Assembly (NCBI GenBank): GCA_017399485.1
Contig: JAFQCA010000021.1
Span: forward strand, 62,001-126,000
Length of the DNA: 64,000 nucleotides
Direction: 5' to 3'
Origin: Alistipes sp.
Lineage (GTDB): Bacteria > Bacteroidota > Bacteroidia > Bacteroidales > Rikenellaceae
Below are positions 3,356-48,596 of the stretch, piece by piece. A program made the translations under genes and the position numbers. The number at the start of each line of letters is the position of its first letter. Position 1 is the stretch's first letter. The notes beneath the pieces are model-generated. The model saw only the letters and a list, made by a program, of their open reading frames with translations. It had not been told where the DNA came from and searched no databases.

Positions 3356-3410
3356 AGGTATAACTTTTAGGCGTGTCGCAAACAATAGCAACAACAACAT
3401 TTATATTATG

Positions 3411-3418
3411 CAAATATA
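3411..3418 (-). promoter_or_regulatory. Bacteroidota -7 box for the receiver/PEP-synthase-like gene
   Basis: On the minus strand the bases read TATATTTG, a full match to the TAnnTTTG -7 consensus, 56 bases upstream of the ATG at 3355. No clear -33 TTTG was found at the right distance. Confidence 0.6.
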
Positions 3419-3460
3419 GAAATTTCCTGCAAATATTTCTGTCTAATTCGCTTAATTTCG

Positions 3461-3468
3461 TATTTTTG
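3461..3468 (+). promoter_or_regulatory. -7 box for the C-GCAxxG-C-C gene
   Basis: TATTTTTG matches TAnnTTTG and ends 22 bases before the ATG at 3491. It is divergent from the box at 3411-3418. Confidence 0.6.
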
Positions 3469-3490
3469 CGATGGATAAAGATATTTGGCT

Positions 3491-3955
3491 ATGAGAGTAA
3501 ACGTAGAAGAGCGTGCAATGCGCGCAAAAGAGTTATTTTTGGAGGGTTACAACTGCGCACAATCGGTATTTCTGGCATACCGCGACCTTACACCGTTTGA
3601 TGAGAAGATTGCCGCAACCGTTGCCGCCCCATTTGGCGGAGGTATGGGCCGACTACGGGAGGTATGTGGCGCAGTGAGCGGAATGACTATGGTAGCAGGA
3701 TTCTTATATCCAAATTTCGACCCCGCAGACAGCCAAAGCAAGAAGGAAAACTATGCTGCGGTACAAAAATTAGCCGAGAAGTTTCGTAAGGAAAACGGCG
3801 CCATAGTATGCCGAGAATTATTGGGCCTTGCACAAAAGAAGGATGAGCCCACACCATCGCCTCGAACCGAAGAGTATTACAAGCGTCGTCCTTGTGCCGA
3901 ATATGTCGCAATAGCCGCTCGCATCGTGGGCGAGAAGATAAACACAATGGAGTAA
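3491..3955 (+). CDS. C_GCAxxG_C_C family protein
   Basis: A 154-residue protein starting at ATG 3491; a TTG six bases upstream is in frame but less likely. It has the family's spaced cysteines: GYNCAQSV near residue 20, VCGAVSG near 60 preceded by the glycine-rich FGGGMGR, IVCRELLG near 105 and RPCAEYV near 138. The family is assumed to bind a metal or act in redox chemistry, but its reaction is not established. A -7 box lies just upstream. The gene is a single unit ending at a hairpin shared with mscL. Confidence 0.85.
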   Translation: MRVNVEERAMRAKELFLEGYNCAQSVFLAYRDLTPFDEKIAATVAAPFGGGMGRLREVCGAVSGMTMVAGFLYPNFDPADSQSKKENYAAVQKLAEKFRKENGAIVCRELLGLAQKKDEPTPSPRTEEYYKRRPCAEYVAIAARIVGEKINTME

Positions 3956-3977
3956 AACGGCATTTATTTCAATAAAA

Positions 3978-4013
3978 TAATGGGTGTATCAATGTTATTT
4001 GACACACCCATTA
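3978..4013. terminator. Bidirectional terminator between the C_GCAxxG gene and mscL
   Basis: TAATGGGTGT (3978-3987) pairs with ACACCCATTA (4004-4013) around a 16-base loop, between two convergent genes. Confidence 0.75.
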
Positions 4014-4031
4014 TAAGTTTTAAGCCATCGC

Positions 4032-4469
4032 TTATTTCTTCTCCTTCAAAAGGTCACGAATCTCGGTCAAAAGTTTCTCCTCAGCAGTAGGCTCTGGTTC
4101 GGGAGCAGGTGCAGGCGCAGGAGCGGGCTCCTCTCTCTTCTTGATGAGTTGGTTCATAACCTTGACCATCATAAATACACAGAATGCCAAAAGCGTGAAA
4201 TCAACTACCTGCTGAAGGAAAGCACCATAATTCCAAGTAACAGCAGGATTCAACACCTCACCGGCTGCATCCAGCACAGGCTGCTTGAGCGTAACCTTCA
4301 AATCGGTAAAATCAACACCACCGACAAGCAAGCCGATAGGAGGCATAATAACATCATTAACAAGCGAGGTAACAATCTTTCCAAATGCACCACCGATGAT
4401 AACACCGACAGCCATATCCATCACATTACCCTTAAGCGCAAAGGCCTTAAATTCTTGTAAAAATCCCAT
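4032..4469 (-). CDS. mscL: Large-conductance mechanosensitive channel MscL
   Basis: At 145 aa this has the family's usual length. The N-terminal amphipathic segment ([16 protein letters not shown]) leads into the pore helix with [20 protein letters not shown], then a periplasmic loop, a second membrane helix ([17 protein letters not shown]) and a C-terminal helix. A proline/alanine/glutamate-rich linker (residues 114-128) joins the pore domain to the bundle-forming tail. The channel releases solutes on sudden osmotic downshift in the inner membrane. It is a single-gene unit. Confidence 0.96.
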
Positions 4470-4551
4470 AATATTTCATTTATTAGTTTGATGATTAATA
4501 ATTTCTTTCTCCTCACGAATATACGTTTCATTCTCGCACAAGCAAATCGCA

Positions 4552-5139
4552 CTACAACAAAATATCTCGCAACTGCCGACAACTGCTCTCATAATCATTA
4601 CGGTCAAAATGGAAGCCAGTGATTCCTTTGGCTAAAGCAGCATCAATATTCTCACGTCTATCGTCTATAAACATCGTTTCTGCGGCTTCAAGCGAGTACT
4701 TCTCAAGCAAGATATCGTATATCTGCGGCATAGGCTTTACAACACCCACCTCGCACGAAACGACATCGCCCTCGAAGTTAGCATAAACATCCTGCTTACG
4801 CAAGAAATCGATAAACTCGCGCGACATATTGGACAAAACATAAAGCCTATAACCTGCACTCTTCAAGTCCCGAATAAGTGCAGCCGTAGGAGCAATGGTC
4901 TCCTGACGGGATATTGCCAATAGTATCAACTCGCGAGTATAAGACTCTTCAACTCCTCGATAGGCGCTCAACTCACGCACAACATCGTCCAAAGTCGATA
5001 CCCCCAAGTCGTAATCAACCCAAAATTGCGGCATCGGAGTCTGTTGAACATACGAGAAAAATTGCTTAAACTCGTCGCTACTCTTTCGAGGGTCTTGAGC
5101 AAAAACCACTCGGCCCAAATCGAAAACAATATTTTTCAT
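4552..5139 (-). CDS. HAD-superfamily hydrolase (YihX-like)
   Basis: The start is placed at ATG 5139, so the protein opens MKNIVFDLGRVVF, the nucleophile motif at the N-terminus; an upstream in-frame ATG at 5175 would add 12 residues not seen in the family. The protein is 195 aa. Motif I has Asp with the second Asp replaced by Gly (DLGR), as in the YihX subgroup of sugar-phosphate phosphatases. Motif II is YVLSNMS, motif III is VVKPMPQIY and motif IV is FIDDRRENIDAA. A cap helix region lies between motifs I and II. The substrate is unknown. Confidence 0.85.
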   Translation of the reverse strand: MKNIVFDLGRVVFAQDPRKSSDEFKQFFSYVQQTPMPQFWVDYDLGVSTLDDVVRELSAYRGVEESYTRELILLAISRQETIAPTAALIRDLKSAGYRLYVLSNMSREFIDFLRKQDVYANFEGDVVSCEVGVVKPMPQIYDILLEKYSLEAAETMFIDDRRENIDAALAKGITGFHFDRNDYESSCRQLRDILL

Positions 5140-5258
5140 ATATACAAAGATATGAAATGGATATGAAATTACCAAATTAGAATAACAGGTCTTATATTCA
5201 AATAACCCACTTAATAAAATAAGGTAGCAAAATTGTGTTATCAGTACAATATTATTCG

Positions 5259-5266
5259 TATATTTG
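5259..5266 (+). promoter_or_regulatory. -7 box for the lipoprotein gene
   Basis: TATATTTG lies 43 bases upstream of the ATG at 5310. Confidence 0.6.
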
Positions 5267-5309
5267 CGTTCTATTTGCAGAAATTATAAATATAACAAAC
5301 ATAAGTAAA

Positions 5310-6358: not shown

Positions 6359-7621
6359 TTATGCACCAAAGTTATCGAACAAGATGTTCTCTGAAGGTAC
6401 TCCGAGGCTGTCAAGCATATTGACAACGGCTGATGCCATCATCGGAGGTCCACACATCAAGTAGATGCAGCCCTCAGGCTCATCGTGGTTCTTCAAATAA
6501 TTCTCGTACAATACATTGTGAACGAAACCAACCTTATACTCTACACCTGCGGCATCGGCTGCGGGGTCGGGACGGTCCAAAGCCAAGTGGAATTTGAAGT
6601 TGGGGAACTCCTTCTCGATAGCAGCAAAATCCTCCAAATAGAATGCCTCCTTCAATGAACGGGCACCATACCAGAAGGTTACAGGACGCTTGGTCTTCTC
6701 GGTCTTGAACAAGTGCATCAAGTGGCTACGCATAGGAGCCATACCTGCACCACCACCGATGAATACCAACTCCTGAGTATCAGGCAAATTATCGGGCAAG
6801 AAGAACTCTCCATAAGGACCAGAGATAGTAATCTTATCACCCGGCTTCAATGAATAGATGTATGAAGAACATACACCCGGATTAACCTTCATAAAGCCAC
6901 CTGTAGCACGGTCAAACGGAGGTGTAGCGATACGTACATTCAACTTGATTACGTTACCCTCAGCAGGATATGTAGCGCAAGAGTAAGCGCGAACCTGCGG
7001 CTCGGGGTTAACCATCTGCAAATCGAATACGTGCATCTTCTCCCAATCCTCGCGGTACTCGGGGTCAACGTCAATATCCTTATAGTTTACTGTAATGGCA
7101 GGAACGTCAATCTGGATGTAACCACCACTGCGGAAGTTCAAATCCTCGCCCTCAGGCAACTTAACAACGAACTCCTTGATAAATGTAGCCACATTGTGGT
7201 TAGAGACAACCTCACACTCCCACTTCTTGATTGAAAGGACTGACGCAGGAACGGCAATCTTCATATTCTCCTTAACCTTAACCTGGCAACCCAAACGCCA
7301 CTTCTGCTGAATCTGCTTGCGATTGAAGAAACCTGTCTCGGTAGGAAGAATCTCGCCTCCGCCCTCCAAAACCTGACACTTGCACTGACCACAAGCACCC
7401 TTACCGCCACAAGCCGACGGAAGGAAGATACCCTGTGCAGTGAGTGTATTCAACAAAGTTGAGCCTGCCTCGACAGTCAAAACCTTGTTACCGTCATTAA
7501 TATCGATAGTAACATCTCCTGAAGATGTAAGTTTAGCCTTCGCAAAGAGAAGCAACGCTACCAAAAGCAGTGTCACCACCAGAAAGGCAACTATCGCAAC
7601 AACAATTGTTAAAATATCCAT
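6359..7621 (-). CDS. nqrF: Na+-translocating NADH:quinone reductase subunit F
   Basis: This 420-aa protein accepts electrons from NADH and starts the chain through FAD and a [2Fe-2S] cluster. One N-terminal membrane helix (residues 5-27) is followed by a plant-type ferredoxin domain with CGGKGACGQCKC near 70-81 and a fourth Cys near residue 113. A ferredoxin-NADP-reductase-like part follows, with the FAD motif RAYSCATYP and the nucleotide-binding GGGAGMAPMRSH. Length and domain order match NqrF. It is the last gene of nqrABCDEF and is followed by a strong terminator. Confidence 0.98.
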   Translation of the reverse strand: MDILTIVVAIVAFLVVTLLLVALLLFAKAKLTSSGDVTIDINDGNKVLTVEAGSTLLNTLTAQGIFLPSACGGKGACGQCKCQVLEGGGEILPTETGFFNRKQIQQKWRLGCQVKVKENMKIAVPASVLSIKKWECEVVSNHNVATFIKEFVVKLPEGEDLNFRSGGYIQIDVPAITVNYKDIDVDPEYREDWEKMHVFDLQMVNPEPQVRAYSCATYPAEGNVIKLNVRIATPPFDRATGGFMKVNPGVCSSYIYSLKPGDKITISGPYGEFFLPDNLPDTQELVFIGGGAGMAPMRSHLMHLFKTEKTKRPVTFWYGARSLKEAFYLEDFAAIEKEFPNFKFHLALDRPDPAADAAGVEYKVGFVHNVLYENYLKNHDEPEGCIYLMCGPPMMASAVVNMLDSLGVPSENILFDNFGA

Positions 7622-7643
7622 TTCTTTATCTCTTATTAAAGGT

Positions 7644-8252
7644 TTACAACTTAATTCCAGAGAAAATCATAAATGCAATACCCATCAAACCTGTGATGAT
7701 AAATGCAATACCGGGACCCTTCAAACCTGCGGGGATGTGAGAGTACTGCAAACGCTCACGGATAGCGGCCATCATAACTATAGCCAACCACCAGCCCAAG
7801 CCTGAGCCAACACCGTAAACGATGCTCTGCCACAAACCATCAATCTCGCCTGATACGACCTTCTGTTGCATAAACAACGAACCACCCATAATGGCGCAGT
7901 TCACAGCGATAAGCGGCAAGAAGATACCCAACTGATTATAGAGTGAAGGTGAATACTTCTCAACAACCATCTCCACCAACTGCACAAACGACGCAATTAC
8001 GGCGATGAAGACGATGAAGGTCAAGAAACTCAAATCAACACCCTCTACCAAAGCATTGGGAGCCAACACATACTCGTTCAAAAGGTAGTTCAAAGGCACT
8101 GTCATAGTCATCACGAATGTAACGGCAGCACCCAAACCCAATGCAGTCTTTACGCTCTTCGACACGGCAATGTAAGAACACATACCGAAGAAGAAGGCGA
8201 ATACCATATTGTCGATAAAAATCGAACGTATAAAAAGATTCAATGTTTCCAT
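7644..8252 (-). CDS. nqrE: Na+-translocating NADH:quinone reductase subunit E
   Basis: A 202-aa integral membrane subunit with six predicted helices, homologous to NqrD and RnfA/E. The half-helix cysteine motifs that hold the intramembrane FeS centre are visible (FFGMCSY near residue 22, and VNCAIMGG). NqrD and NqrE form an inverted pair in the membrane core. The ATG at 8252 is preceded on the minus strand by a strong AGGAGGT ribosome binding site that lies just after the nqrD stop, which fixes the start. Confidence 0.97.
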   Translation of the reverse strand: METLNLFIRSIFIDNMVFAFFFGMCSYIAVSKSVKTALGLGAAVTFVMTMTVPLNYLLNEYVLAPNALVEGVDLSFLTFIVFIAVIASFVQLVEMVVEKYSPSLYNQLGIFLPLIAVNCAIMGGSLFMQQKVVSGEIDGLWQSIVYGVGSGLGWWLAIVMMAAIRERLQYSHIPAGLKGPGIAFIITGLMGIAFMIFSGIKL

Positions 8253-8262
8253 ATTCTACCTC

Positions 8263-8886
8263 CTATTTTTCCTGCAAATCCTTGTTAAACGAACGGTGTA
8301 CCCAGATGATTACACCTACAATAATAAGAGCCATCGGCGGGAAGAGCATAATACCTACGTTTGAGTAGAAACCACCGTTGGCGATATACCAACTCTCAGG
8401 GATGATTCGAATATCGAACAATGTGCCCGAACCGAACAACTCACGGAAGAAGGCTACGATAAGCAAAATAGCAGCATAACCCAAACCGTTACCAATACCA
8501 TCGAGGAATGAATCCCAAGGTTTGTTACCCAAAGCATAGGCCTCCACACGACCCATAATAATACAGTTGGTAATAATAAGACCGACGTATACCGACAACT
8601 GTTTTGACACATCGTATACGAAAGCCTTCAAAAATTGGTCAACCAAAATTACCAACGCAGCAATAACAACCAACTGAACGATGATACGAATGCGCGAAGG
8701 AATACCATTACGCAAAAGTGACATCACCAAGTTAGCGAATGCTGTAACGACCATAACTGACAGACCCATAACAAATGCGGGCTCCATCTTTACAGTCACC
8801 GCCAAAGCCGAACAAATACCCAAAATCTGAACGATTACAGGGTTGTTTGAACTCAGCGGTCCGGTTAAATTTTTCAAATTACTCAT
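8263..8886 (-). CDS. nqrD: Na+-translocating NADH:quinone reductase subunit D
   Basis: A 207-aa membrane subunit with six predicted helices. It has cysteine motifs matching those of NqrE (ILGICSALAV near residue 22; ITNCIIMGR near residue 110), which bind the FeS centre shared by NqrD and NqrE. It sits between nqrC (14 bp) and nqrE (10 bp), consistent with one transcript. Confidence 0.97.
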   Translation of the reverse strand: MSNLKNLTGPLSSNNPVIVQILGICSALAVTVKMEPAFVMGLSVMVVTAFANLVMSLLRNGIPSRIRIIVQLVVIAALVILVDQFLKAFVYDVSKQLSVYVGLIITNCIIMGRVEAYALGNKPWDSFLDGIGNGLGYAAILLIVAFFRELFGSGTLFDIRIIPESWYIANGGFYSNVGIMLFPPMALIIVGVIIWVHRSFNKDLQEK

Positions 8887-8900
8887 AGTTCCGCTTGTTT

Positions 8901-9590
8901 TTATTTGTTAGACTTATTAGCATTAAAATAGGGACGATAATTGTCAAGACCTGACTGAAGCATTGCATTAACACCGTCGCAAGTCTTAGTACCTCCAGAG
9001 ATAGCATCTACCTCGTGATTATTTGTAGCACCACCCTTACGCATAGACACCGATACGAAATTATCGCCTTCGAAGATTGTCTTACCAACGAATGAAGACT
9101 GTACCTTTGATGTAGTAATCTCGGCACCCAGACCCGGAGTCTCACCAGAGTGGTCCATAACGATACCCTTAACGGTATTCATATCGGGCTCAAGTGCGAT
9201 ATAACCCCAGATGGGGCCCCACAAACCGGCACCGTAAACGGGAACTACAACACAACCATTATTTGCCTTAAAGATAGGATACTCACCAGCGTCAAATGAT
9301 GCTGTCAAATCACCCAAAGCCGAGAAAATGTCGGCATCGGTCTTACCCTCAATCTTCTGACCGTTCTTATCGAGCATTACGGCCTCAGCCACAACGTCTG
9401 AATAAGAGGCTGTAGCAGGGTCCTCACCCAAAGCCTTAACAATCTGCTGACGCTTCTCGTTAAGGATGTTCTCGCCCTGACGCTCCTGCAACGAGAGCGA
9501 CGTAACAGCCAACAGAACAGCCACGATTACTACCATCACTACCGAGTAGATGATGATATATACATTGCTATTTACATTAAATTTTGCCAT
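8901..9590 (-). CDS. nqrC: Na+-translocating NADH:quinone reductase subunit C
   Basis: A 229-aa subunit with one N-terminal membrane helix (about residues 9-31) and a periplasmic FMN-binding domain. The covalent flavin site follows the Dxx(S/T)GATx(S/T) pattern and reads DAISGGTKT near residue 200, so the usual Ala is Gly while the acceptor Thr is kept. The flavin is normally attached by ApbE, which is not in this window. The gene has the standard position between nqrB and nqrD. Confidence 0.97.
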   Translation of the reverse strand: MAKFNVNSNVYIIIYSVVMVVIVAVLLAVTSLSLQERQGENILNEKRQQIVKALGEDPATASYSDVVAEAVMLDKNGQKIEGKTDADIFSALGDLTASFDAGEYPIFKANNGCVVVPVYGAGLWGPIWGYIALEPDMNTVKGIVMDHSGETPGLGAEITTSKVQSSFVGKTIFEGDNFVSVSMRKGGATNNHEVDAISGGTKTCDGVNAMLQSGLDNYRPYFNANKSNK

Positions 9591-9599
9591 ACTCTCTCG

Positions 9600-10724
9600 T
9601 TATTTTACAGTTTTAATACGACTCTTACGACGATTGATGTTTGCCTCTACAACGAAGTAATCAATTGTAGGAGTCAATGCATTCATAAACAGGATAGCCA
9701 ACATCATACCCTCGGGGTAAGCGGGGTTCACAACGCGAACCATAACAGCCAACGCACCTGTCATAAAGCCAACGATATACTTACCAACGTTAGTCTGTGC
9801 TGAAGTTACAGGGTCTGTAGCCATAAATACTGCACCGAATGCGAAACCACCAACCAAAAGGTGATAGTAAGCAGGATAATCAGTAGCGCCAACAGCCTGG
9901 AACAAATAACCCATAGCCAAACCACCTACAAATACGCTCAACATAGTACGCCAAGAGGCAACACCTGTCCAAAGCAGGAACAAACCACCCAACAAGATGC
10001 AGAGTGTAGAGGTCTCACCAAATGAACCGGGGATAAAGCCGAGGAATGCATCCATCACGCTCCACTGCATCTGGCCTGTTGTTGCCAACTGCTCCAAAGC
10101 GGTAGCACCAGTTGTAGCGTCAGTAGCACCCATCATCTTCCAATCAGAGAACCAAACCTTCTCACCTGACATCTGGGGAGTAAATGCAAAGAATACAAAT
10201 GCACGTGCAACAAGAGCAGGGTTAAACACATTCATACCTGTACCACCGAACACCTCTTTTGCAAAGATTACAGAGAAGGCAACACCCAAAGCAACCATCC
10301 ACAACGGAGTGCTGACGGGCATAATCATAGGAATCAAAAGACCTGTTACCAAATAACCCTCGGCAACCTCCTCCTTACGGATTTGTGCATAAGTAACCTC
10401 AATACCCAAACCTACGATATATGATACGGCAACCATAGGAAGCACGCGTACCAAACCGTAAATCAAAGCATTAAAGCCTTCCAAACCAACCTGCAAACCT
10501 GTATTGAAGCAACCAAACAAGAAAGCAGGGATAAGAGCCAAGATTACCATCGTCATTGTACGCTTGATATCGTTACAATCGCGGATATGCGCACCCTTCT
10601 TGGTGGTAATATTAGGAACAAAAAGGAATGTTTCGAAAGCATCGAATGTAGATGCAAGGAAACTCAACTTACCGCCCTCCATAAAGGTCGGCTTGATATT
10701 ATCAACTAATTTTCGCAATCCCAT
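9600..10724 (-). CDS. nqrB: Na+-translocating NADH:quinone reductase subunit B
   Basis: The ATG at 10724 (protein opens MGLRKLVDN) is preferred over the GTG at 10733 because an AAAGGAG ribosome binding site lies at the right distance. The start codon overlaps the region just before the nqrA stop, so the two genes are translationally close. The 374-aa membrane protein carries a covalent-FMN motif TTGAT near residue 195 and multiple helices homologous to RnfD. It forms the main sodium path with NqrD and NqrE. Confidence 0.97.
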   Translation of the reverse strand: MGLRKLVDNIKPTFMEGGKLSFLASTFDAFETFLFVPNITTKKGAHIRDCNDIKRTMTMVILALIPAFLFGCFNTGLQVGLEGFNALIYGLVRVLPMVAVSYIVGLGIEVTYAQIRKEEVAEGYLVTGLLIPMIMPVSTPLWMVALGVAFSVIFAKEVFGGTGMNVFNPALVARAFVFFAFTPQMSGEKVWFSDWKMMGATDATTGATALEQLATTGQMQWSVMDAFLGFIPGSFGETSTLCILLGGLFLLWTGVASWRTMLSVFVGGLAMGYLFQAVGATDYPAYYHLLVGGFAFGAVFMATDPVTSAQTNVGKYIVGFMTGALAVMVRVVNPAYPEGMMLAILFMNALTPTIDYFVVEANINRRKSRIKTVK

Positions 10725-10726
10725 AA

Positions 10727-12082
10727 CTAACACTCCTTTATCATTAAGTTAATACCGTCACGAACCAACTGCTGAATCTCGGTCTTTGAGGGGTCTACGA
10801 ACTCACAAAGAGCAACATCCTCCTCGACAATCTCGTAGATACCGAGGTTCTCCATCTTGTCGATATCGTTAGCAATAATTGCCTTGAACAGATACATAGG
10901 ATAGATATCCATCGGCAGATACTCCTCAAACAAACCTGTTACAACAAATGCGCGAACACCGCCATTGAGGTTGGTATCGAGTTTGTACTCCTTCTTCGGG
11001 CAGAGCCAAGAGAAGTATGAGCGTGATACCGAGAACTTATTGAAACGAGGAGCAATCCAGCCCAACATCTCATACTTATCGCCCTCAGGAATAACAGTAA
11101 TTTGAGTCGCAGTAGCGCTGATAAAACCATCGGCAGCAACCTTCTTACCTGTAAGCACGTTACCTGAAATGATACGAACTGTATCACCCTCAGCCTGAGC
11201 CTTGATATTACCAGCAACGATAGATGCTACGGGAGCACCGCTGATGATACGGTAATATTGAGGTTTCTCAACCTCGCTACCTGTCAAGGCAACAACCTTG
11301 TGCAAATCAACCTTGCCGGTTGAGAACAAGCGACCAATAGCGGCTACATCCTGAATTGCTACTGTCCAAGCGATATCGCCCTTTGCGATTGGGTCGATGT
11401 GGTGAATCTGAACACCTACACAACCTACGGGGTGCTTACCCTCGAAGGTGTGAATCTCAGCGCCCTTGAGTGAAGTCATCTCGCCCTCAGCCTTAGCCTT
11501 AACAGAGAGGTGAACCTTTCCGTTAGAGAGTTTTGACAACACCTCAAGTCCCTTCTGCAAATTCTCCTTCTCGCCCTTGAGTGCGAAGTTCATATCAGCA
11601 GCCAAAGGTGCTGAATCGAATGCAGAAACGAAAATAGCCTTTGGCTCGTCAGCAGGATTTGCCACAATACCGTAGGGACGCTGAAGAATCATTGTCCACA
11701 AACCCGACTTGAGCAAAGTCTCGATAACCTCTTCGCGAGTAGCCTTCTGCAAGTCAAGCAGAGCAAACTCTGCCGACTCTTGCTGGGCATCGGCAGCAAC
11801 TGTTACGTTGAGAATCTTACGCTTCTCACCACGATTAACAGCCGACACGGTACCGCTTACGGGTGAAGTAAACAACACGCGAGGATTGTTCTTATCGAAG
11901 AACAAAGGCTCACCTGCCTTCACCTTGTCGCCCACCTTCACCAACAATTTAGGAGTCACGTTCTCAAAATCCAGCGGCGATACGGCATACTCGGCAGCCA
12001 ATGGCAACTCTACCAAAGACTCCGCAGCCTTACCCTGAAGATTGATGTCGAGACCCTTCTTTAGTTTAATGATTTTCGACAT
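10727..12082 (-). CDS. nqrA: Na+-translocating NADH:quinone reductase subunit A
   Basis: The start is ATG 12082 (MSKIIKLKKGLDINLQGK), the conserved N-terminus of NqrA. The open frame upstream to 12223 runs through the promoter region and is not family-like. The 451-aa peripheral subunit contributes to quinone binding with NqrB. It is the first gene of the six-gene operon, with a -7-like box at 12191-12198, giving a 5' leader of roughly 100 nt. Confidence 0.97.
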   Translation of the reverse strand: MSKIIKLKKGLDINLQGKAAESLVELPLAAEYAVSPLDFENVTPKLLVKVGDKVKAGEPLFFDKNNPRVLFTSPVSGTVSAVNRGEKRKILNVTVAADAQQESAEFALLDLQKATREEVIETLLKSGLWTMILQRPYGIVANPADEPKAIFVSAFDSAPLAADMNFALKGEKENLQKGLEVLSKLSNGKVHLSVKAKAEGEMTSLKGAEIHTFEGKHPVGCVGVQIHHIDPIAKGDIAWTVAIQDVAAIGRLFSTGKVDLHKVVALTGSEVEKPQYYRIISGAPVASIVAGNIKAQAEGDTVRIISGNVLTGKKVAADGFISATATQITVIPEGDKYEMLGWIAPRFNKFSVSRSYFSWLCPKKEYKLDTNLNGGVRAFVVTGLFEEYLPMDIYPMYLFKAIIANDIDKMENLGIYEIVEEDVALCEFVDPSKTEIQQLVRDGINLMIKEC

Positions 12083-12190
12083 AGATTTGTAATTAATTTG
12101 AATGAATTTTATGTAATTTGTGTGTGTTATTCCATTTGCAGTTTTACGACGAGTTCCGTCCAATAAAACGACCTTCGTTAAAAACGCGCA

Positions 12191-12198
12191 CGAAGGTA
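12191..12198 (-). promoter_or_regulatory. Probable -7 box of the nqr operon
   Basis: The minus strand reads TACCTTCG, one base from TAnnTTTG, about 110 bases upstream of nqrA. No clear -33 box was found. Confidence 0.5.
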
Positions 12199-12271
12199 CG
12201 ATTTTTTTTGCACTTTTTGGCACTATTTAGGTTATTATTTTTATTTTACCGTAAAATTTATTATTTTTCTC

Positions 12272-39921: not shown

Positions 39922-41910
39922 ATGTTTTATCTCGGATTACTTCTGACACTTACTCTACTTGTAGCAGCCCTATTTATAGCCCCGCTACGAAGTAAGATTT
40001 GGGTGGCATTTACAACCGTCATAATTGCCGTTGCAGCGCTATCCTACCCCGCTATCACGGCTCTTATGACCGCACACCCCATTGTCTTGATGCAGGCCCA
40101 AGGGCCTATTTTTGGAGCAGAGAATTTAAGTATTGATTCTCTCTCGGCTCTTTTCCTGATAATCATAGGCATAGCAGGTATAGCAACAATAATCTATTCG
40201 CGAGGATATTTAGCACAATATCTCGACAAGAAATCATCGGTACACATATCATTACACTACGCGGCATTGGTGATTATGATTCTGTCGATGATGCTGGTTG
40301 TAATGTCGAGCGGAGGATTTTCGTTCCTGCTCGCGTGGGAGTTGATGACCATTGCGTCATTTATACTCATACTCTTCGATGCCCAACGAGCCGAAGTGTT
40401 GCGTGCCGCACTCGCATATCTGATAATGATGCACGTCGGATTCATATTCCTCGTAGCAGGCTTTGCCACACTTCACGCCACAACAGGCTCGGCATCGTTT
40501 GAGGCTCTTCCAATAGCGTTTGGTCAAGGCAAAACGATTCTGCTATTTGTGTTATTCTTATTGGGCTTTGGAATGAAGGCCGGATTGTTCCCTATGCACG
40601 TCTGGTTGCCCGAAGCACACCCCGCGGCACCGTCGCACGTATCGGCCATAATGTCGGGCGTGATGATTAAGACGGGAGTATATGGTATAATGCGCGTCCT
40701 GTGGCACATCAGCAACACTCAAGAGTTACAGACCATAGGATTTATAATTCTCGCGGTTGGTGTTGTAACAGGTCTATGGGGTGTGATACTCGCCGCCTTG
40801 CAGAACGATGTCAAGAGATTATTGGCATATTCGAGCATCGAGAATATAGGAGTTATATTTATCGGTCTGGGTATTGCAACATTGGGATTAGCCGCCTCAA
40901 ACAGCATAGTAGCGACGTTGGCTCTATGCGGAGCATTATTACACATTGTAAATCACTCGCTATTTAAGACTTTATTATTCTTTGGCGCAGGAAACCTCTA
41001 TTCGCAGATGCACTCTACGCATCTTAATAGTTTTGGAGGTGTCGCCAAAAGTATGCCCGTAACGGCCATATTATTCCTGATAGCGACTGCTGCTATTTGT
41101 GCACTACCGCCACTAAACGGTTTTGTCGGAGAGTTTATGATTTATCTGGGTATGCTCAACAGCGTACGCGACGGAGTGAACACCCTGGCTGCCGCAGGAG
41201 GCATTATCGCTTTGGCCTTGATTGGAGGTATCGTGGTTTTTGCATTTACAAAACTTTATAGTACCGTATTCCTCGGCTCTCCGCGCGACCATCACGTTGC
41301 CGAAGCCGAAGAGGTTGACAATATGCGTCTGGCTGCTATGGCTATACCGACTGCAGGAATAATCATTATAGGTATCGCACCGCAGTTGGTTATTCGCGTA
41401 TTGACAAACATTGCCGACGGATTAATTCCATCGGCCACCCCCATAATTAGCGGATACATCACCCCGACTTTGGGACGTGTATCGCTCACCGCTCTGTTGA
41501 TAATAATCGTTATCGCATTGCTCTATATGCTAAAGAGTCGCGCACAGCGTTCTCGCACTATTGAACAAGGCCCGACTTGGGGTTGCGGATTCACTTCGCC
41601 AAATATTCGTATGCAATATACCGGCGAATCGTTCTCCGAGAATCTGGAGTCGATAACCACATCGCTCACGCAAAACACAGTAGAGGGACGCGCTGTAAGC
41701 AAAAGCGAAATATTCCCCTCGGCGCATAACTACCACGTGCGACACAAAGACAAGATTGACCGACTGTTTACTGAGTGGTGGGTTGAGTTATTGCGTATAA
41801 TCAACAAGCGCATAATGAGCCTGCGTACGGGTAAGATAAACCACTATATATTGTTCGCCTTATTATTCCTTGTTGCGATATTTATTCTTTCACTCTTTAA
41901 TATTTTATAA
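39922..41910 (+). CDS. hyfB: Hydrogenase-4/complex I antiporter-like subunit (HyfB type)
   Basis: A 662-aa membrane protein with about 16 helices, homologous to NuoL and MrpA antiporter-like subunits. The charged residues used for ion translocation are all present: Glu140 (LAWELM), Lys219 (GMKAGLFP), Lys250 (IKTGVYG), His341/His345 and Lys349 (HSLFKTLL). The C-terminal hydrophobic helix is preceded by a hydrophilic region (545-640). An AAAGG ribosome binding site supports the ATG at 39922. It begins a six-gene run with intergenic gaps of 2-21 bp. Confidence 0.93.
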   Translation: MFYLGLLLTLTLLVAALFIAPLRSKIWVAFTTVIIAVAALSYPAITALMTAHPIVLMQAQGPIFGAENLSIDSLSALFLIIIGIAGIATIIYSRGYLAQYLDKKSSVHISLHYAALVIMILSMMLVVMSSGGFSFLLAWELMTIASFILILFDAQRAEVLRAALAYLIMMHVGFIFLVAGFATLHATTGSASFEALPIAFGQGKTILLFVLFLLGFGMKAGLFPMHVWLPEAHPAAPSHVSAIMSGVMIKTGVYGIMRVLWHISNTQELQTIGFIILAVGVVTGLWGVILAALQNDVKRLLAYSSIENIGVIFIGLGIATLGLAASNSIVATLALCGALLHIVNHSLFKTLLFFGAGNLYSQMHSTHLNSFGGVAKSMPVTAILFLIATAAICALPPLNGFVGEFMIYLGMLNSVRDGVNTLAAAGGIIALALIGGIVVFAFTKLYSTVFLGSPRDHHVAEAEEVDNMRLAAMAIPTAGIIIIGIAPQLVIRVLTNIADGLIPSATPIISGYITPTLGRVSLTALLIIIVIALLYMLKSRAQRSRTIEQGPTWGCGFTSPNIRMQYTGESFSENLESITTSLTQNTVEGRAVSKSEIFPSAHNYHVRHKDKIDRLFTEWWVELLRIINKRIMSLRTGKINHYILFALLFLVAIFILSLFNIL

Positions 41911-41912
41911 TT

Positions 41913-42827
41913 ATGGGAATAGCACTCAACACACTACTTATGCTGATAGTTGCAATCTCCATAACAGGAGTGATTAACCGATGTCGCGCAATATTGGCTG
42001 GCCGCAAGGGTTTGCCGTTTTTTCAGCATATCTACAACGTAAGGCTACTAATGCGCAAAGGTGCAGTCTATTCGACAACAACCACTGCCCTATTCCGCAT
42101 CGCACCTGCCGTATATCTTGGCTCGGCTATCGTAGCGATTCTTTTTATACCTATTGCCGACCTCAATCCGCTCATATCGTTTGAGGGAGATGTTATATGT
42201 TTTGCTTACCTGCTGGCTTTGGGGCGTTTTGCCCTCATCTTGGCTGCAATGGATACAGGTAGTTCTTTCGAAGGTATGGGCGCATCACGCGAAGCGTTGT
42301 ATGGCGCATTAATCGAGCCTGCCATAATGGTAGGATTTGCCACATTGGCTATGTTCTGCGGTTACACCTCGTTTGCTGATATTTTTGCCCACGAACAGTC
42401 GTTCAACCTACACTTGACAATAGTTATGCTACTGACGGCATATCTATTTATTAAAATTGCATTCGTCGAGTCGGGACGCGTACCCGTAGATGACCCGCGA
42501 ACTCACCTCGAACTAACGATGATTCACGAGGTGATGTGCTTGGATTATTGCGGTATAGATATGGCGATGATTCAAATAGCAGGCTGGCTTAAAACGGCAT
42601 CACTCTCGATGCTCGCTGCAAATGCAATAGCAGCAACAGGATGTTTCCATTGGTGGTTTGCCACTCCGTTGGCCATTCTGCTTACAGGCTTATCCGTCGG
42701 CGTAGTCGAATCGACACAGGCTCGCAACAAACTTGTACGCAACACCACATTTATCGTAACCATTTCGGCATTGGCGGCTTTGATATTTTTCATAGGTTAC
42801 CTGCTGCAACTAAACATCAATATTTAA
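41913..42827 (+). CDS. hyfC: Hydrogenase-4/complex I NuoH-like membrane subunit (HyfC type)
   Basis: A 304-aa protein with eight predicted helices that docks the soluble arm onto the membrane. The conserved loop GMGASREALYGALIEPA (near residue 122) and ESGRVPVDDPRTHLELTMIHE (near residues 187-207) are intact, with the acidic residues expected along the proton path. Length and motifs fit HyfC/HycD. It sits 2 bp after hyfB. Confidence 0.93.
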   Translation: MGIALNTLLMLIVAISITGVINRCRAILAGRKGLPFFQHIYNVRLLMRKGAVYSTTTTALFRIAPAVYLGSAIVAILFIPIADLNPLISFEGDVICFAYLLALGRFALILAAMDTGSSFEGMGASREALYGALIEPAIMVGFATLAMFCGYTSFADIFAHEQSFNLHLTIVMLLTAYLFIKIAFVESGRVPVDDPRTHLELTMIHEVMCLDYCGIDMAMIQIAGWLKTASLSMLAANAIAATGCFHWWFATPLAILLTGLSVGVVESTQARNKLVRNTTFIVTISALAALIFFIGYLLQLNINI

Positions 42828-42831
42828 GAAT

Positions 42832-43461
42832 ATGGTATTAACACTCATTATATTGTACGTCATAACGCTCATATACCTATCGACGGTTGAGCGTTTCCGT
42901 AACTACGCCTCGATAATTGCGTGGCAAGGGTGGATTCTATTAGGCATCGCACTGTTGCAACTGCACACTTTGAATTGGGTGGAGTTGGGATTTGTCATAC
43001 TCGAGACACTTATATTCAAGGCCCTTGTAGTACCCGCCATATTGATGAATGTCATCAAGAAGACCAACATCAATCGCGTAAGCACATCGGGCACGTCGCA
43101 GTTCAATTCGCAGATGTTGTCAATCGCGGCACTGATAGTAAGTGCTATTACCACATATTATGTGGCCGACTCTTCGGTACATATGTTATTCTTTGGCGTT
43201 GCACTATATGCACTTTTGAGCGGACTTATATTAATCGTTCTGCGCTCGCGCATCTTTACTCACGTCGTCGGGTTCCTTGTCATAGAGAATGGTGTATTCC
43301 TATTCTCGATGGCGATTGGTGTCGAGATGCCCATATTGATTAATATGGCTATTATGCTTGATATCTTGATTTCGATTTTGATGCTCGGAATGTTCCTCAC
43401 AAAAGTTGACGATAAGATTCACGCCGACGACAGCGATTCATTAACACGCGTAAAAGACTAA
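42832..43461 (+). CDS. hyfE: NuoK-like membrane subunit (HyfE type)
   Basis: A 209-aa protein with six predicted helices. The characteristic ETLIFKALVVPA stretch near residue 60 and a Glu in WVELG are present, as expected for ion transfer in HyfE/NuoK-type subunits. Length matches the E. coli protein (216 aa). Gaps of 4-5 bp to its neighbours show operon membership. Confidence 0.92.
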   Translation: MVLTLIILYVITLIYLSTVERFRNYASIIAWQGWILLGIALLQLHTLNWVELGFVILETLIFKALVVPAILMNVIKKTNINRVSTSGTSQFNSQMLSIAALIVSAITTYYVADSSVHMLFFGVALYALLSGLILIVLRSRIFTHVVGFLVIENGVFLFSMAIGVEMPILINMAIMLDILISILMLGMFLTKVDDKIHADDSDSLTRVKD

Positions 43462-43466
43462 AGGCT

Positions 43467-44870
43467 ATGATATATTTCTACTTTTTATTATGGCTTGCCA
43501 TAGCCGCTACCACATTGGCTGCACGTTCACGTCGTGTAGTACACATTTTATGCGGATGCTATTTAACAATCCACGCGGTATTTATCGAGCAACTGCTATT
43601 TGGCGGAGAGTACCTCACGACATCGGGAATATTCTTTACGTTTGACGAGGCGGGAACGCTATTTTACATCCTGCTCGCAATAGTTGCACTATTTGTATTC
43701 TGGCACTCTGAGGAGTATCTGAAAGATGATGCGATAGAGCATTACAGATTGTATTTTTCGTTGCTGATGCTGCTTACTACAGCCATCACGGGAGTGTATT
43801 TTGCCAACAACATCGCCATTACCTGGATTCTGTTGGAGGCCACGACTCTTTGTGGTGCTGGCATACTCTACTACCGCCGCTCAAAGCCCACGCTTGAGGC
43901 AACGTGGAAATATCTGTTTGTATGTTCGACAGGTATTGCAATCGCCTATCTGGGTATTTTGTTATTGTGTGCTGCGGCAGAGAACTCATCGCTCAACTAT
44001 ACCGAACTGCAAGGCATTATAGCACAAGGTAATCCCCTCTATCTAAAGGTGGCATTTATCCTGATTCTTACGGGATATAGTTGCAAGATGGAGATTTTCC
44101 CGTTATACACCATCGGCGTTGATGCCAACTTCGCGGCCCCTGCACCTGCATCGGCTATGATATCGACAGGATTGGTGAATGCTGGATTCTTGGCTATTTT
44201 TCGCATCTATCGCCTTTTTGCCGATACTCCCGTATTCGGCTGGGTACAAAACGTGATGTTGCTGACTGGTATTTTGAGCCTTATCGTCGGAGCATTGTTC
44301 CTGCGTCGTACAAACAATTACAAACGTTTTCTATCGTACTCGACAGTCGAGAATATGGGTATCGCGGCCATCGGCTTAGGAATAGGCGGCACAGGTGTCT
44401 GGGCGGCTGTTTTCCACGTTGTTTGCCACTCGCTCATCAAGAGCAGCCTCTTCTTGCAGATTGGTATCGTGCGCCACATCTATAACGGTTACCGTATTAA
44501 CCGTATTGGAGATTATATAAACATCAACAAAGTGGGAGCAATCGGTTTGTTGGTAGGTATGGTTGTAATCTTGGCCTTCCCGCCATCACCTCTCTTTATC
44601 TCGGAGTTGATGATTCTATCGGAGACCATAACGGCGGGAGATTGGTGGCTTACGGCATTGATGATGCTTCTTATGTGCATCGTGATTTACTCGGTATGCC
44701 ACCGCGTAATAAAACTATGTTATCAGCCTAATCAGGATGAACTTCATATATCGAATATCAATCGCCGTCTATCATATAGCGCACTGATTTTGATGCTGGG
44801 CGCGATTGTTATCGGATTGTGGCAGCCCGAACCACTTAAAGCAATTATTGACTCAATTGTGAATATGTAG
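43467..44870 (+). CDS. hyfF: Second antiporter-like subunit (HyfF type)
   Basis: A 467-aa membrane protein, shorter than HyfB. It keeps the key residues Glu124 (ILLEATTL), Lys207 (SCKMEIFP) and Lys325 (HSLIKSSLF). It therefore appears able to translocate ions. There is no third antiporter-like subunit (HyfD) in this operon. A 3-bp gap separates it from hyfG. Confidence 0.92.
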   Translation: MIYFYFLLWLAIAATTLAARSRRVVHILCGCYLTIHAVFIEQLLFGGEYLTTSGIFFTFDEAGTLFYILLAIVALFVFWHSEEYLKDDAIEHYRLYFSLLMLLTTAITGVYFANNIAITWILLEATTLCGAGILYYRRSKPTLEATWKYLFVCSTGIAIAYLGILLLCAAAENSSLNYTELQGIIAQGNPLYLKVAFILILTGYSCKMEIFPLYTIGVDANFAAPAPASAMISTGLVNAGFLAIFRIYRLFADTPVFGWVQNVMLLTGILSLIVGALFLRRTNNYKRFLSYSTVENMGIAAIGLGIGGTGVWAAVFHVVCHSLIKSSLFLQIGIVRHIYNGYRINRIGDYININKVGAIGLLVGMVVILAFPPSPLFISELMILSETITAGDWWLTALMMLLMCIVIYSVCHRVIKLCYQPNQDELHISNINRRLSYSALILMLGAIVIGLWQPEPLKAIIDSIVNM

Positions 44871-44873
44871 TCT

Positions 44874-46391
44874 ATGCATTACTATATAACAAATAACACC
44901 TCAACAGAGGCTGTAGCCATCAAAGATATTCCCGAAGTGGAGTATGCTACACTTTACAACGACCTTAAGGAGCGTCTTAAGCAGGAGCAATATCACGTCG
45001 CGCACTACTTTGCCACGCCCGACGAGAACAGATTAATGTTCTATATCGTACTGCTCGACGACAAGGAGCACCAGATTATGCTGGCCCGATTTGCAATGGA
45101 GTACTACGACGATATAGCACTCCCTTCGCTGACGGCTTTACATCCTGCACTACACCCATTCGAGCGTGAAATTACCGAACTATACAACGTGCATTTCGGC
45201 TCAATGCCCTGGGATAAACCGTTGCGTTTTGCAGAGGCACGCCGTAACCGCAACTCCACAATTGACAACTACCCCTTCTACACTATCGAAGGAGAGTCGT
45301 TGCACGAAGTGAATGTAGGCCCAATACACGCAGGCATAATCGAGCCGGGTGCATTTCGTTTTATTTGTAACGGCGAGAAGGTACTGCACCTTGAGATTGC
45401 ATTAGGCTACCAACATCGTGGCGTTGAGAGTGAGTTTACCTCGACCAATAACCGTCTGCGCCAAACCCTGCTTGCAGAGAGTATAGCAGGCGATAGTGCC
45501 ATAGCACACACGTCGGCATTTGCAGCGGCGATTGAACGATTGTCGGATAATGCCATAAGCGATTCTCTCGCAACGGAACGTATCGTGGCACTCGAATTGG
45601 AGCGTATGGCTATGCATATTGCCGATACGGGAGCATTATCGATGGACGTAGGATACCAACTCGGCCAAGTTGCTTGCGAGGCACTGCGCACGATGACCAT
45701 CAACACCACACAGGCGTGGTGTGGCAACCGTTTCGGTAAGGGACTTATCCGTCCTTGCGGTACAAACAAGCCTTTGACGAAAGAGAAGGTCGAGATGATA
45801 CTCTCTAACGTAGAGCAGATTAGCCGCCGTTATGCCGAAGTAAGCGACGATATACAGAGTTCGCCCACCCTACTCTCACGTTTCGAGCATTGTGGAATAG
45901 TACCCCAAAACGAGATGCAACGCATCGGAGGCGTAGGTATGGCCGCTCGCGCCAGCGGATTGCTTCGTGATATACGCTCTTCACACCCGTGGGGCGCCTA
46001 TAACACAGAGCCTCGACACGACTCTTGCACAATGCACGATGGTGATGTTATGTCTCGCCTGAAGGTACGATGCGAAGAGGTACAACAGTCGGCACAGAGA
46101 ATAAAATCGTTGCTTGAAGGATACACCACATCGGAGAAGCACCTGCGCCCCGATTATGAGTGTAACCTCAAGCCCAGCCACCTCTCATTTGGACTTATCG
46201 AGGGTTGGCGAGGCGAGATTTGCCACGTCGCACTGACCGATGACAAAGGCCAGATATCGACCTATAAAATAAAGGAGCCAAGCCTTCATAACTGGCTGGC
46301 ATTAGCATTGGCTGTTCGTGGCGAGGGCATTTCGGACTTCCCGATTTGCAATAAGAGTTTCAATCTCTCATACTGCGGTCACGACTTGTAA
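44874..46391 (+). CDS. hyfG: Fused NuoC/NuoD-like large subunit lacking NiFe ligands (HyfG type)
   Basis: A 505-aa protein. Residues 1-125 are NuoC-like (ALHPFEREITELYNV), and the rest is the NuoD/hydrogenase large-subunit fold (GPIHAG at 149; YQHRGVE at 179). At the first metal motif the CxxC of hydrogenases is AGDS (205-208), and at the C-terminal DPCxxC the aligned positions are Asn497, Leu498, Ser499 and Gly502. All four nickel-iron cysteines are missing. It is therefore an Ehr-type protein and not a hydrogenase. No processed C-terminal extension follows. Confidence 0.93.
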   Translation: MHYYITNNTSTEAVAIKDIPEVEYATLYNDLKERLKQEQYHVAHYFATPDENRLMFYIVLLDDKEHQIMLARFAMEYYDDIALPSLTALHPALHPFEREITELYNVHFGSMPWDKPLRFAEARRNRNSTIDNYPFYTIEGESLHEVNVGPIHAGIIEPGAFRFICNGEKVLHLEIALGYQHRGVESEFTSTNNRLRQTLLAESIAGDSAIAHTSAFAAAIERLSDNAISDSLATERIVALELERMAMHIADTGALSMDVGYQLGQVACEALRTMTINTTQAWCGNRFGKGLIRPCGTNKPLTKEKVEMILSNVEQISRRYAEVSDDIQSSPTLLSRFEHCGIVPQNEMQRIGGVGMAARASGLLRDIRSSHPWGAYNTEPRHDSCTMHDGDVMSRLKVRCEEVQQSAQRIKSLLEGYTTSEKHLRPDYECNLKPSHLSFGLIEGWRGEICHVALTDDKGQISTYKIKEPSLHNWLALALAVRGEGISDFPICNKSFNLSYCGHDL

Positions 46392-46412
46392 AAAGAAAAA
46401 GAGTTTAAGATT

Positions 46413-47186
46413 ATGATATTTCCAAAGATAAAAGTTCTACACTCACACGGCTGGCAATACATCCCCGACCTTAACGATGTGACGCTCACCGAAGAGTTTC
46501 GCGGGCGTCCCGAACTGACAGTCACAGAAGATATGGCAGATGTAGAGGCTGCGGCAAAATTATGCCCTACGGGGGCAATATCTGTGGCACCATTTACTCT
46601 CGATTTGGGGCGTTGTCTATTTTGTGGAGAGTGTGCCCTGCGAGCGCCGCGCAACATCCGCTTTACGAATGATTACAAGGTAGGCTCTACTTCTCGCGAA
46701 GCACTTGTCGTAACCCCAGAGACAAAGCAAATTGACTTCCATAAAGAGTTGGTACGCAAGGAGATTCCACAACTATTCTCTCGTTCACTCAAACTGCGAC
46801 AAGTATCTGCCGCAGGTGATGCATCTATCGAGATGGAGTTGAACGCTACGGGAAATGTGAATTTCGATTTCGGACGTTACGGCGTAGAGTTTACAGCCTC
46901 ACCACGCCATAGCGACGGCGTGGTTATCACAGGGCCTATATCCAAGAATATGGCCGAGCCATTGGAGATATGTTATGCTGCAATACCTGAGCCGAAGATT
47001 ACAATCGTTTGTGGTTCGGAGGCTTGTTCGGGCGGATTATTCAGTCAAAGCAAGGCTATCGACAGGAGTTTCCTGCAGCGTCATCACGTCGATTTATGGC
47101 TGCCCGGTGCACCGACACATCCGATGACATTTATTGATGCTGTGATGAATCTTATAGGCAAAAAACAACGACAAGGCAACCAATAG
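46413..47186 (+). CDS. Fused ferredoxin/NuoB-like FeS subunit with reduced cluster ligands
   Basis: A 257-aa protein equal to HyfH (ferredoxin) plus HyfI (NuoB). In the ferredoxin part, motif 1 keeps only Cys51 (CP), the other three positions being Met41, Val44 and Ala47. Motif 2 keeps Cys68, Cys71 and Cys74 but has Ala78 before the proline. By 2[4Fe-4S] ligand geometry this makes exactly one cluster. In the NuoB part, the first pair of N2 cysteines is replaced (the GDASIEME region, 135-142), PGCP is PGAP (231-234), and the third site is Glu203, flanked by Cys200 and Cys205. Confidence 0.88.
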   Translation: MIFPKIKVLHSHGWQYIPDLNDVTLTEEFRGRPELTVTEDMADVEAAAKLCPTGAISVAPFTLDLGRCLFCGECALRAPRNIRFTNDYKVGSTSREALVVTPETKQIDFHKELVRKEIPQLFSRSLKLRQVSAAGDASIEMELNATGNVNFDFGRYGVEFTASPRHSDGVVITGPISKNMAEPLEICYAAIPEPKITIVCGSEACSGGLFSQSKAIDRSFLQRHHVDLWLPGAPTHPMTFIDAVMNLIGKKQRQGNQ

Positions 47187-47189
47187 ACT

Positions 47190-48596
47190 ATGTTTCAGCA
47201 GATAATCGACACCGCAAACAACCTGCTTTGGGGCTATATTATGATAGCCGCACTGCTCTTTTGCGCCATATATTTTACCATACGCAGCCGCTTTGTGCAA
47301 TTTCGTATGTTGGGTGAGATGTGTCGATTACTTATCAATCCCGACCAAGATAAAGAGAGTGACTCACAGCATAAACCCAAACGAATAGCCCCCTTTGAGG
47401 CTTTTGTCATCTCGCTTGCAAGTCGTATCGGCACGGGCAATCTGGCAGGTGTGGCTACAGCCATTGTCGTGGGAGGAGCGGGTGCTGTATTCTGGATGTG
47501 GATTATTGCTCTTTTGGGAGCAGCAAACGCCTTCGTGGAGAGTACATTGGCGCAACTCTACAAACGTCGTTCTACGGATTCTTATATAGGAGGTCCTGCA
47601 TATTATATAATGTATGGTATGCGCAACAAGCCGCTTGCCATAACATTCTGCATATTGATTATCGTAACATTCGGCTTTGCATTCAATACAGTTCAAAGCA
47701 ACACTATTTGTGCGGCATTTGAGAATGCTTTCGGAATGGACAAACTATATATGGGATTGGCGCTGACCATTGCGACTCTGCTCATCATCTTCGGTGGCAT
47801 ACAACGTATAGCCAAAGTAAGTAGCATCGTTGTTCCTGTTATGGCTGTCGGATACCTCATCATAGCACTCATAGTCATAGCACTCAACATAGAGCATCTT
47901 CCGACAATACTTGCGACAATAGTCAAGAGTGCCTTCGGCATAGAGCAATTAGCGGGTGGAGGTATGGGAGCAGCCGTTATGCAAGGTATAAAACGTGGTC
48001 TGTTCAGCAATGAGGCAGGTATGGGTTCTGCACCCAATGCCGCAGCGACAGCCACGACATCACACCCCGTAAAACAGGGTTTGATACAGACATTAGGAGT
48101 CTTTACCGACACATTGATTATATGCAGTAGTACCGCATTTATCATACTTGCAAGCGGAGTCGATTTAGGCGGCAACGATGGCGTACAACTGACACAAGAG
48201 GCCCTGACTGCCGAGATTGGTGGCGCGGGCCGTATCATCGTTGCCGTTGCGATATTCTTCTTTGCATTCAGTTCTATATTCGGAAACTACTATTACGGCG
48301 AGGCCAACATTCGCTTTATAACAAAATCTAAACGCGCGCTGACAGCCTATCGCATCATCGTAGGCGCTATGGTTATGGCGGGTGCTATGATGAGCCTAAA
48401 GACGGTATGGGCAATGGCCGACGTGACTATGGGCTTGATGACGATGTGCAACCTTGCTGCCCTGCTATTTTTGGGTGGTCAAGCCATCACTCTGCTCGAC
48501 GATTACAGACGCCAACGTCGCAATGGTTGCGACCCTATGTTTTCAAAAAAATCGTTCAAGGAGTTCAGCGATAACGACGGTATTGAGTGTTGGTAG
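47190..48596 (+). CDS. AgcS-family alanine/glycine:cation symporter
   Basis: A 468-aa inner-membrane transporter with about 11 helices. The family signature lies around SRIGTGNLAGVATAI near residue 75 and SNEAGMGSAPNAAATATT near residue 271. AgcS proteins import alanine or glycine with Na+ or H+. It starts 3 bp after the FeS subunit, so it looks like the seventh gene of the Ehr-like operon. That is unusual and may link amino-acid import to the ion gradient (inference). Confidence 0.95.
   Translation: MFQQIIDTANNLLWGYIMIAALLFCAIYFTIRSRFVQFRMLGEMCRLLINPDQDKESDSQHKPKRIAPFEAFVISLASRIGTGNLAGVATAIVVGGAGAVFWMWIIALLGAANAFVESTLAQLYKRRSTDSYIGGPAYYIMYGMRNKPLAITFCILIIVTFGFAFNTVQSNTICAAFENAFGMDKLYMGLALTIATLLIIFGGIQRIAKVSSIVVPVMAVGYLIIALIVIALNIEHLPTILATIVKSAFGIEQLAGGGMGAAVMQGIKRGLFSNEAGMGSAPNAAATATTSHPVKQGLIQTLGVFTDTLIICSSTAFIILASGVDLGGNDGVQLTQEALTAEIGGAGRIIVAVAIFFFAFSSIFGNYYYGEANIRFITKSKRALTAYRIIVGAMVMAGAMMSLKTVWAMADVTMGLMTMCNLAALLFLGGQAITLLDDYRRQRRNGCDPMFSKKSFKEFSDNDGIECW

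Follow-up and report, generated by a model that had tools for sequence, protein, structure and literature searches.

The last gene of a six-gene operon at positions 39922-47186 of the analysed window (the whole 64,000-nucleotide stretch of an Alistipes sp. contig) encodes a fused ferredoxin-NuoB small subunit, hereafter P0001, which retains the ligands of one predicted [4Fe-4S] cluster and has lost those of cluster N2. The sequence-only reading that preceded this analysis had treated the loss as a feature of this single protein. Comparison of homologous sequences indicates instead that the N2-less state is a trait of a whole Bacteroidota-centred subclade of the Ehr (energy-converting-hydrogenase-related) complexes and not a product of decay, and that the Alistipes small subunit is the most reduced form within it. 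We consider it moderately probable that this N2-less Ehr subtype is a redox-uncoupled ion transporter, in which the single cluster would play a structural or sensory role.

The operon and its partner subunits

The six genes, with the family assignments of their products, are as follows:

39922..41910, forward strand: HyfB/NuoL-type antiporter-like subunit (EhrA-like), 662 aa; PF00361, E-value 6.6e-54
41913..42827, forward strand: HyfC/NuoH-type subunit (EhrB-like), 304 aa; PF00146, E-value 9.3e-25
42832..43461, forward strand: HyfE-type subunit (EhrC-like), 209 aa; NCBIfam hydrogenase 4 membrane subunit, E-value 2.5e-11, below the cut-off
43467..44870, forward strand: HyfF/NuoN-type antiporter-like subunit (EhrD-like), 467 aa; PF00361, E-value 2e-35
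44874..46391, forward strand: NuoC/D-type large subunit (EhrL-like), 505 aa; PF00346/PF00329
46413..47186, forward strand: P0001, fused ferredoxin-NuoB small subunit (EhrS-like), 257 aa, one predicted [4Fe-4S] cluster

The source genome belongs to an Alistipes-related member of Rikenellaceae (the closest matches are genomes of the same genus and named Alistipes loci), and it contains only one NuoB-like gene. Judged by its gene set and by the missing [NiFe] motifs, the complex fits Ehr, a family of group-4-like complexes without [NiFe] ligands (PMC6349859, PMC10284858, PMC7304191).

The membrane subunits exhibit the residues expected of ion-translocating proteins: E140, K219, K250, K349 and E404 are conserved in the NuoL-like subunit (whose match to the NCBIfam hydrogenase 4 subunit B family falls below the cut-off), E124, K207, K325 and E380 in the NuoN-like subunit, and the NuoH-like subunit carries an invariant acidic/His network (E120, E127, E135, E186, D193, D194, H198, E200, H205, E206). 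The antiporter Glu/Lys residues and the acidic/His loop of the NuoH-like subunit are conserved equally in members with N2 (N2+) and without it. Many N2-less operons (L044, L048, L050, L051 and others; about 1200-5300) possess two tandem NuoL-like genes before the NuoH-like gene, and Alistipes has one.

In the large subunit, none of the four [NiFe] cysteines is present, the corresponding positions in the alignment to HycE, MbhL and Nqo4 being A205, S208, S499 and G502. The quinone ligands Tyr87 and His38 of Thermus Nqo4 align with D207 and I156. Both sets of ligands are missing from the N2-less and the N2+ subtype alike, and all Ehr examined share a conserved AESxxGD in place of the [NiFe] motif. 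The large subunits of N2-less members outside Alistipes (e.g. L050, L062, L071) contain extra cysteines at positions 42, 58, 59, 256, 450 and 452, which N2+ relatives mostly lack and which Alistipes has for the most part lost again.

Elsewhere in the window lies nqrABCDEF, the operon of a Na+-translocating NADH:quinone reductase (6359-12223, reverse strand), and a second NqrB/RnfD homolog is found on contig C20, beside an RnfC-like gene.

Fold and ligand positions of the small subunit

The P0001 reading frame comprises 257 codons with no internal stop. The C-terminal part of the protein is related to NuoB, MbhJ and HycG (PF01058, E-value 9.5e-17; MbhJ, E-value 3e-15), and the N-terminal part resembles the ferredoxin-type subunits HycF and NuoI. 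The AF2 single-chain model of the small subunit (pLDDT 91.4) matched the fold of HycG (Z 15.7), and that of the large subunit (pLDDT 89.7) gave HycE as the best match (TM 0.89); the folds of both subunits are therefore intact.

Cluster ligands were mapped by phmmer alignments to HycF and MbhJ. P0001 has seven cysteines, at positions 51, 68, 71, 74, 187, 200 and 205. Cys51 corresponds to the fourth cysteine of motif 1 and Cys68, Cys71 and Cys74 to the first three cysteines of motif 2 of HycF, a ferredoxin of the 8Fe type; in complex I, these four ligands belong to cluster N6b, the one nearest to N2. All four ligands of N6a are missing, i.e. the first three cysteines of motif 1 and the fourth of motif 2, expected near residue 78, so the alignment to HycF agrees with the earlier claim of one complete ligand set and one entirely lost. 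The claim that the canonical N2 ligands had been replaced is likewise borne out by the alignment to MbhJ, in which the four cysteines of the proximal/N2 cluster correspond to D136, I139, E203 and A233 (0/4 retained). The statement that only Cys200 and Cys205 were left in this domain was mistaken: it overlooked Cys187, and none of the three cysteines is an N2 ligand. We rejected Cys200 and Cys205 as relict ligands because they align with no N2 ligand and are unconserved, homologs having Ala, Cys or Val at position 200 and mostly Ile at position 205. The positions concerned are:

46563..46634, forward strand: codons of the retained ligands Cys51, Cys68, Cys71 and Cys74 (N6b-type), invariant in 81/81 homologs
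46818..46829, forward strand: former N2 positions 136 (Asp) and 139 (Ile), aligned with the CxxC of MbhJ; 136 is D/E in 50/50 members of the clade
47019..47021, forward strand: former N2 position 203 (Glu); D/E in 50/50 members of the clade, C in 31/31 N2+ homologs
47109..47111, forward strand: former N2 position 233 (Ala); N/A in 50/50 members of the clade, C in 31/31 N2+ homologs

Conservation and phylogeny

Fused orthologs were detected in 46 of 120 sampled Rikenellaceae genomes, the window's own genome included. The 26 aligned Rikenellaceae sequences share long invariant stretches; Cys51, Cys68, Cys71, Cys74 and D136 are present in all of them, and none has a cysteine at any N2 ligand position. 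A wider sample of 81 homologs covered Bacteroidota, Ignavibacteriota, Melainabacteria, Spirochaetota, Lentisphaerota, Nitrospirota and others; the Melainabacteria, Nitrospirota and Spirochaete relatives belong to groups with reported Ehr (PMC6349859, PMC10284858). The N6b cysteines are found in 81/81 of these homologs, a figure that is favoured for some loci because the search patterns contained part of the N6b motif (along with F[TV]ASPRHAD); all four were likewise present in 16 additional homologs from an independent profile search.

At the N2 positions, 31 of the 81 homologs exhibit CCCC and the remaining 50 exhibit [D/E]-x-[D/E]-[N/A]. Positions 136, 203 and 233 are replaced together in all 50 N2-less proteins, with no mixed state among the three positions in the 81 homologs. 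The commonest replacement is D-C-D-N (34/50), Ser138 is present in 50/50, and the Alistipes proteins have D-[I/V]-[E/D]-A. About half of the N2+ homologs keep N6a and the remainder lack it partly or wholly; it is retained in 0/50 N2-less homologs.

In the phylogenetic tree, the 50 N2-less sequences fall on one side of a single branch (support 100/99), and after rooting on distant N2-keeping Ehr sequences they form a clade (100/92). The sister of this clade (98/85) is a protein from genome G220 with complete N6a, N6b and N2 motifs, and because the sister has all three clusters, the loss of N2 is a derived state. The most likely history is an ancestor with three clusters, repeated losses of N6a and a single loss of N2, which coincided with that of N6a.

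Genomic neighborhood

The gene directly downstream of the operon in the window is:

47190-48596, forward strand: agcS, a sodium:alanine symporter gene that begins a few bases past the small-subunit gene

It was rejected as a functional partner, since it lies beside the operon in no other Rikenellaceae locus examined. Other transporter genes recur. A SulP gene directly follows the small-subunit gene in the sister G220 and in the N2-less loci L046 and L074; in a second N2+ lineage (L104, L109, L110, L173, L175, L176, L178, L180) SulP occurs upstream together with an EIIA-HTH regulator; and in the distant Ehr of G133 it is located between the G and S genes. In the N2-less locus L042 the small-subunit gene is followed by one for an NhaD Na+/H+ antiporter (its match exceeds one NCBIfam cut-off), and CitMHS-type transporter genes flank L097 and G128. 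As several of these loci are close relatives, we count about four independent arrangements (a raw count) and take the transporter neighbors as no more than suggestive of function. The association with SulP is present before and after the loss of N2, i.e. in both subtypes, and N2 therefore seems dispensable for the function linked to it. SulP genes beside or inside Ehr operons were also observed at L169 and L182, in the latter between the large and small subunit genes.

Many N2+ Ehr operons are immediately preceded by a gene, often one that overlaps the start of the operon, for a PTS EIIA domain (PF00359) fused to a helix-turn-helix domain (PF12728), which is likely to be a regulator (L089, L094, L096, L097, L103, L104, L106, L109, L110, L170-L181). 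As regards redox partners, NuoEF-like and Hox genes occur in the vicinity of one N2-less locus, L090 from a Spirochaete, and no other N2-less locus was found to be linked to a redox partner gene.

Relation to known complexes

With the described Ehr complexes (PMC7894505, PMC6349859, PMC10284858, PMC7304191) the operon shares the gene set, namely one or two NuoL-like subunits, HyfC, HyfE, a NuoN-like subunit, and the large and small subunits, as well as a large subunit without [NiFe] CxxC motifs; the difference lies in the small subunit, which in the clade described here lacks the N2 and N6a ligands. The closest solved folds are those of formate hydrogenlyase/hydrogenase-4 (Hyc/Hyf, 7z0s), represented by the HycG, HycE and HycF comparisons above, but here there are no [NiFe] ligands, no proximal cluster, and one ferredoxin cluster instead of two, and the ferredoxin and the small subunit are fused. 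Classification as a group 4 [NiFe]-hydrogenase is contradicted by the [NiFe] cysteines (0/4) and by HypD, found in 0/120 Rikenellaceae genomes. HypD is required for maturation of the [NiFe] center.

Complex I (NuoB/C/D/H/L/N) shares the core folds and the membrane charge network, whereas N2, N6a and the aligned quinone ligands are missing here. Mrp antiporters resemble the proposed mode of action, in that they employ NuoL/N-type subunits without redox drive, but the complex analysed here has a NuoB/C/D arm, and the Mrp subunit MrpE/MnhE was detected in 0/120 Rikenellaceae genomes. Another precedent is DAB2, a vectorial CO2 hydration complex, in which a NuoL-like subunit is coupled to non-redox cytoplasmic chemistry (PMC13144422); its partner protein DabA (PF10070) is absent from the source genome.

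Possible function of the N2-less complex

The ligand maps support the earlier conclusion that the usual electron wire to the membrane is broken. Since two of the three iron-sulfur clusters have been lost, among them the one that passes electrons onward, the ion-moving parts have been kept and ion transporters recur beside the operon in related genomes, ion movement by this complex is probably not driven by redox chemistry in the usual way. A non-redox channel or antiporter had been suggested before; the conserved antiporter residues and the recurrent ion-transporter neighbors speak for it, while ion transport itself, and its independence of through-complex electron transfer, is what we infer from these sequences. 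As the sequences and the tree show, the Bacteroidota-centred Ehr subclade at one time lost N6a and N2 and kept only the N6b-type [4Fe-4S] cluster, and its membrane arm has retained the full set of ion-translocation residues. In the mechanism that we envisage, this arm would move cations or protons, by Na+/H+ antiport or gated ion flux, in the absence of a through-complex redox reaction and in the manner of Mrp or DAB2; the former Q-module could have become a gate or a structural cap, and the remaining cluster could have a structural role or one in sensing redox state or O2. A Na+/H+ exchanger would fit the physiology, because MnhE is absent and Na+-NQR is encoded in the window.

More tentatively, with somewhat less than even confidence, we picture a redox-free complex I which has kept its NuoB/C/D arm and acts, together with SulP/NhaD-type transporters, as an Fe-S-gated ion (Na+/H+) antiporter or as an ion/bicarbonate machine. 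Several points speak against redox-free ion transport: one would not expect a pure ion transporter to carry an invariant Fe-S cluster except for sensing or stabilization, and electrons may yet pass through this cluster to an unknown partner; the transporter neighbors are no more than suggestive, and the one in the window, agcS, is not conserved; and the N2-less locus L090 lies near NuoEF-like and Hox genes.

It is rather unlikely that electrons take another route, passing from ferredoxin or another donor to the N6b-type cluster and on to a different acceptor, either thiols or an unknown cofactor within the large subunit, bypassing N2 and still driving the pump. The invariance of the N6b ligands (81/81), the extra cysteines in the large subunits of N2-less members outside Alistipes and the conservation of AESxxGD in all Ehr examined would agree with such a route, and the last of these means that an unknown active site may exist. 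It is opposed by the concomitant loss of N6a, which is the second cluster in the aligned ferredoxins (retained in 0/50), and by the scarcity of linked redox partner genes, confined in the N2-less clade to the vicinity of L090. As for a rebuilt cysteine site in the large subunit, we rejected it as a general explanation, the cysteines having largely been lost again in Alistipes.

Less probable still is a rebuilt N2 pocket, in which Asp136/Cys139/Asp203/Asn233 would bind another metal, relay protons or act catalytically, e.g. in CO2/bicarbonate chemistry connected with the SulP partner, with a reduced form in Alistipes. The strict co-replacement (D/E-x-D/E-N/A in 50/50, DCDN in 34/50), the constant Ser138 and the SulP neighbors in both subtypes are in its favor; yet Alistipes lacks Cys139 and Asn233 and is left with two carboxylates, and the SulP neighbors do not track the new pocket residues, because SulP also adjoins loci with intact N2. 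Fe-S clusters with ligands other than Cys are known in principle, and with Asp/Glu at two ligand positions in 50/50 proteins an unusual N2-like cluster held by carboxylate/Asn ligation can be imagined, but it would require three or four non-Cys ligands (the DCDN forms have at most one Cys left, and Alistipes has none), which makes it very improbable.

Finally, a decaying, non-functional remnant of a hydrogenase under relaxed selection is highly improbable: catalytic metal ligands have indeed gone from two subunits and the gene is absent from some Rikenellaceae genomes, but pairwise dN/dS of the small-subunit gene among Alistipes relatives (pairs with saturated dS left out) is 0.05-0.19 and lies in the range covered by its five operon partners, the loss is single, old and kept across many families, the long invariant stretches persist, and even scattered genes are maintained. 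The last point refers to genomes G013, G072 and G113, in which the small-subunit gene lies away from the other operon genes (at a contig end in G113); a small-subunit gene without a complex was considered for them and rejected, as the large and NuoH-like subunits are encoded elsewhere in the same genomes. The sequence-only reading thus holds in preferring selective loss to random decay, the ligand pattern being conserved and dN/dS equal to that of the neighbors. Of the two signs that it had named as speaking against it, full-ligand homologs do exist, the sister with three clusters among them, and no relaxation of selection was seen.

Implications

The Ehr family is already known, but the N2-less subtype appears to be undescribed in the open literature searched (a scope that does not extend to the founding Ehr paper, Marreiros 2013), where no report of N2 loss in Ehr was found. 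The way in which ion transport is driven by electron transfer at N2, at a distance of tens of angstroms, is a central question of complex I research. A natural relative, maintained by selection, with the same folds and ion-channel residues and without the N2 and quinone ligands, would be an object on which a redox-free arm could be tested. For the poorly understood Ehr family, the linkage to SulP and Na+/H+ transporters offers a functional lead, in gut bacteria that lack Mrp antiporters.
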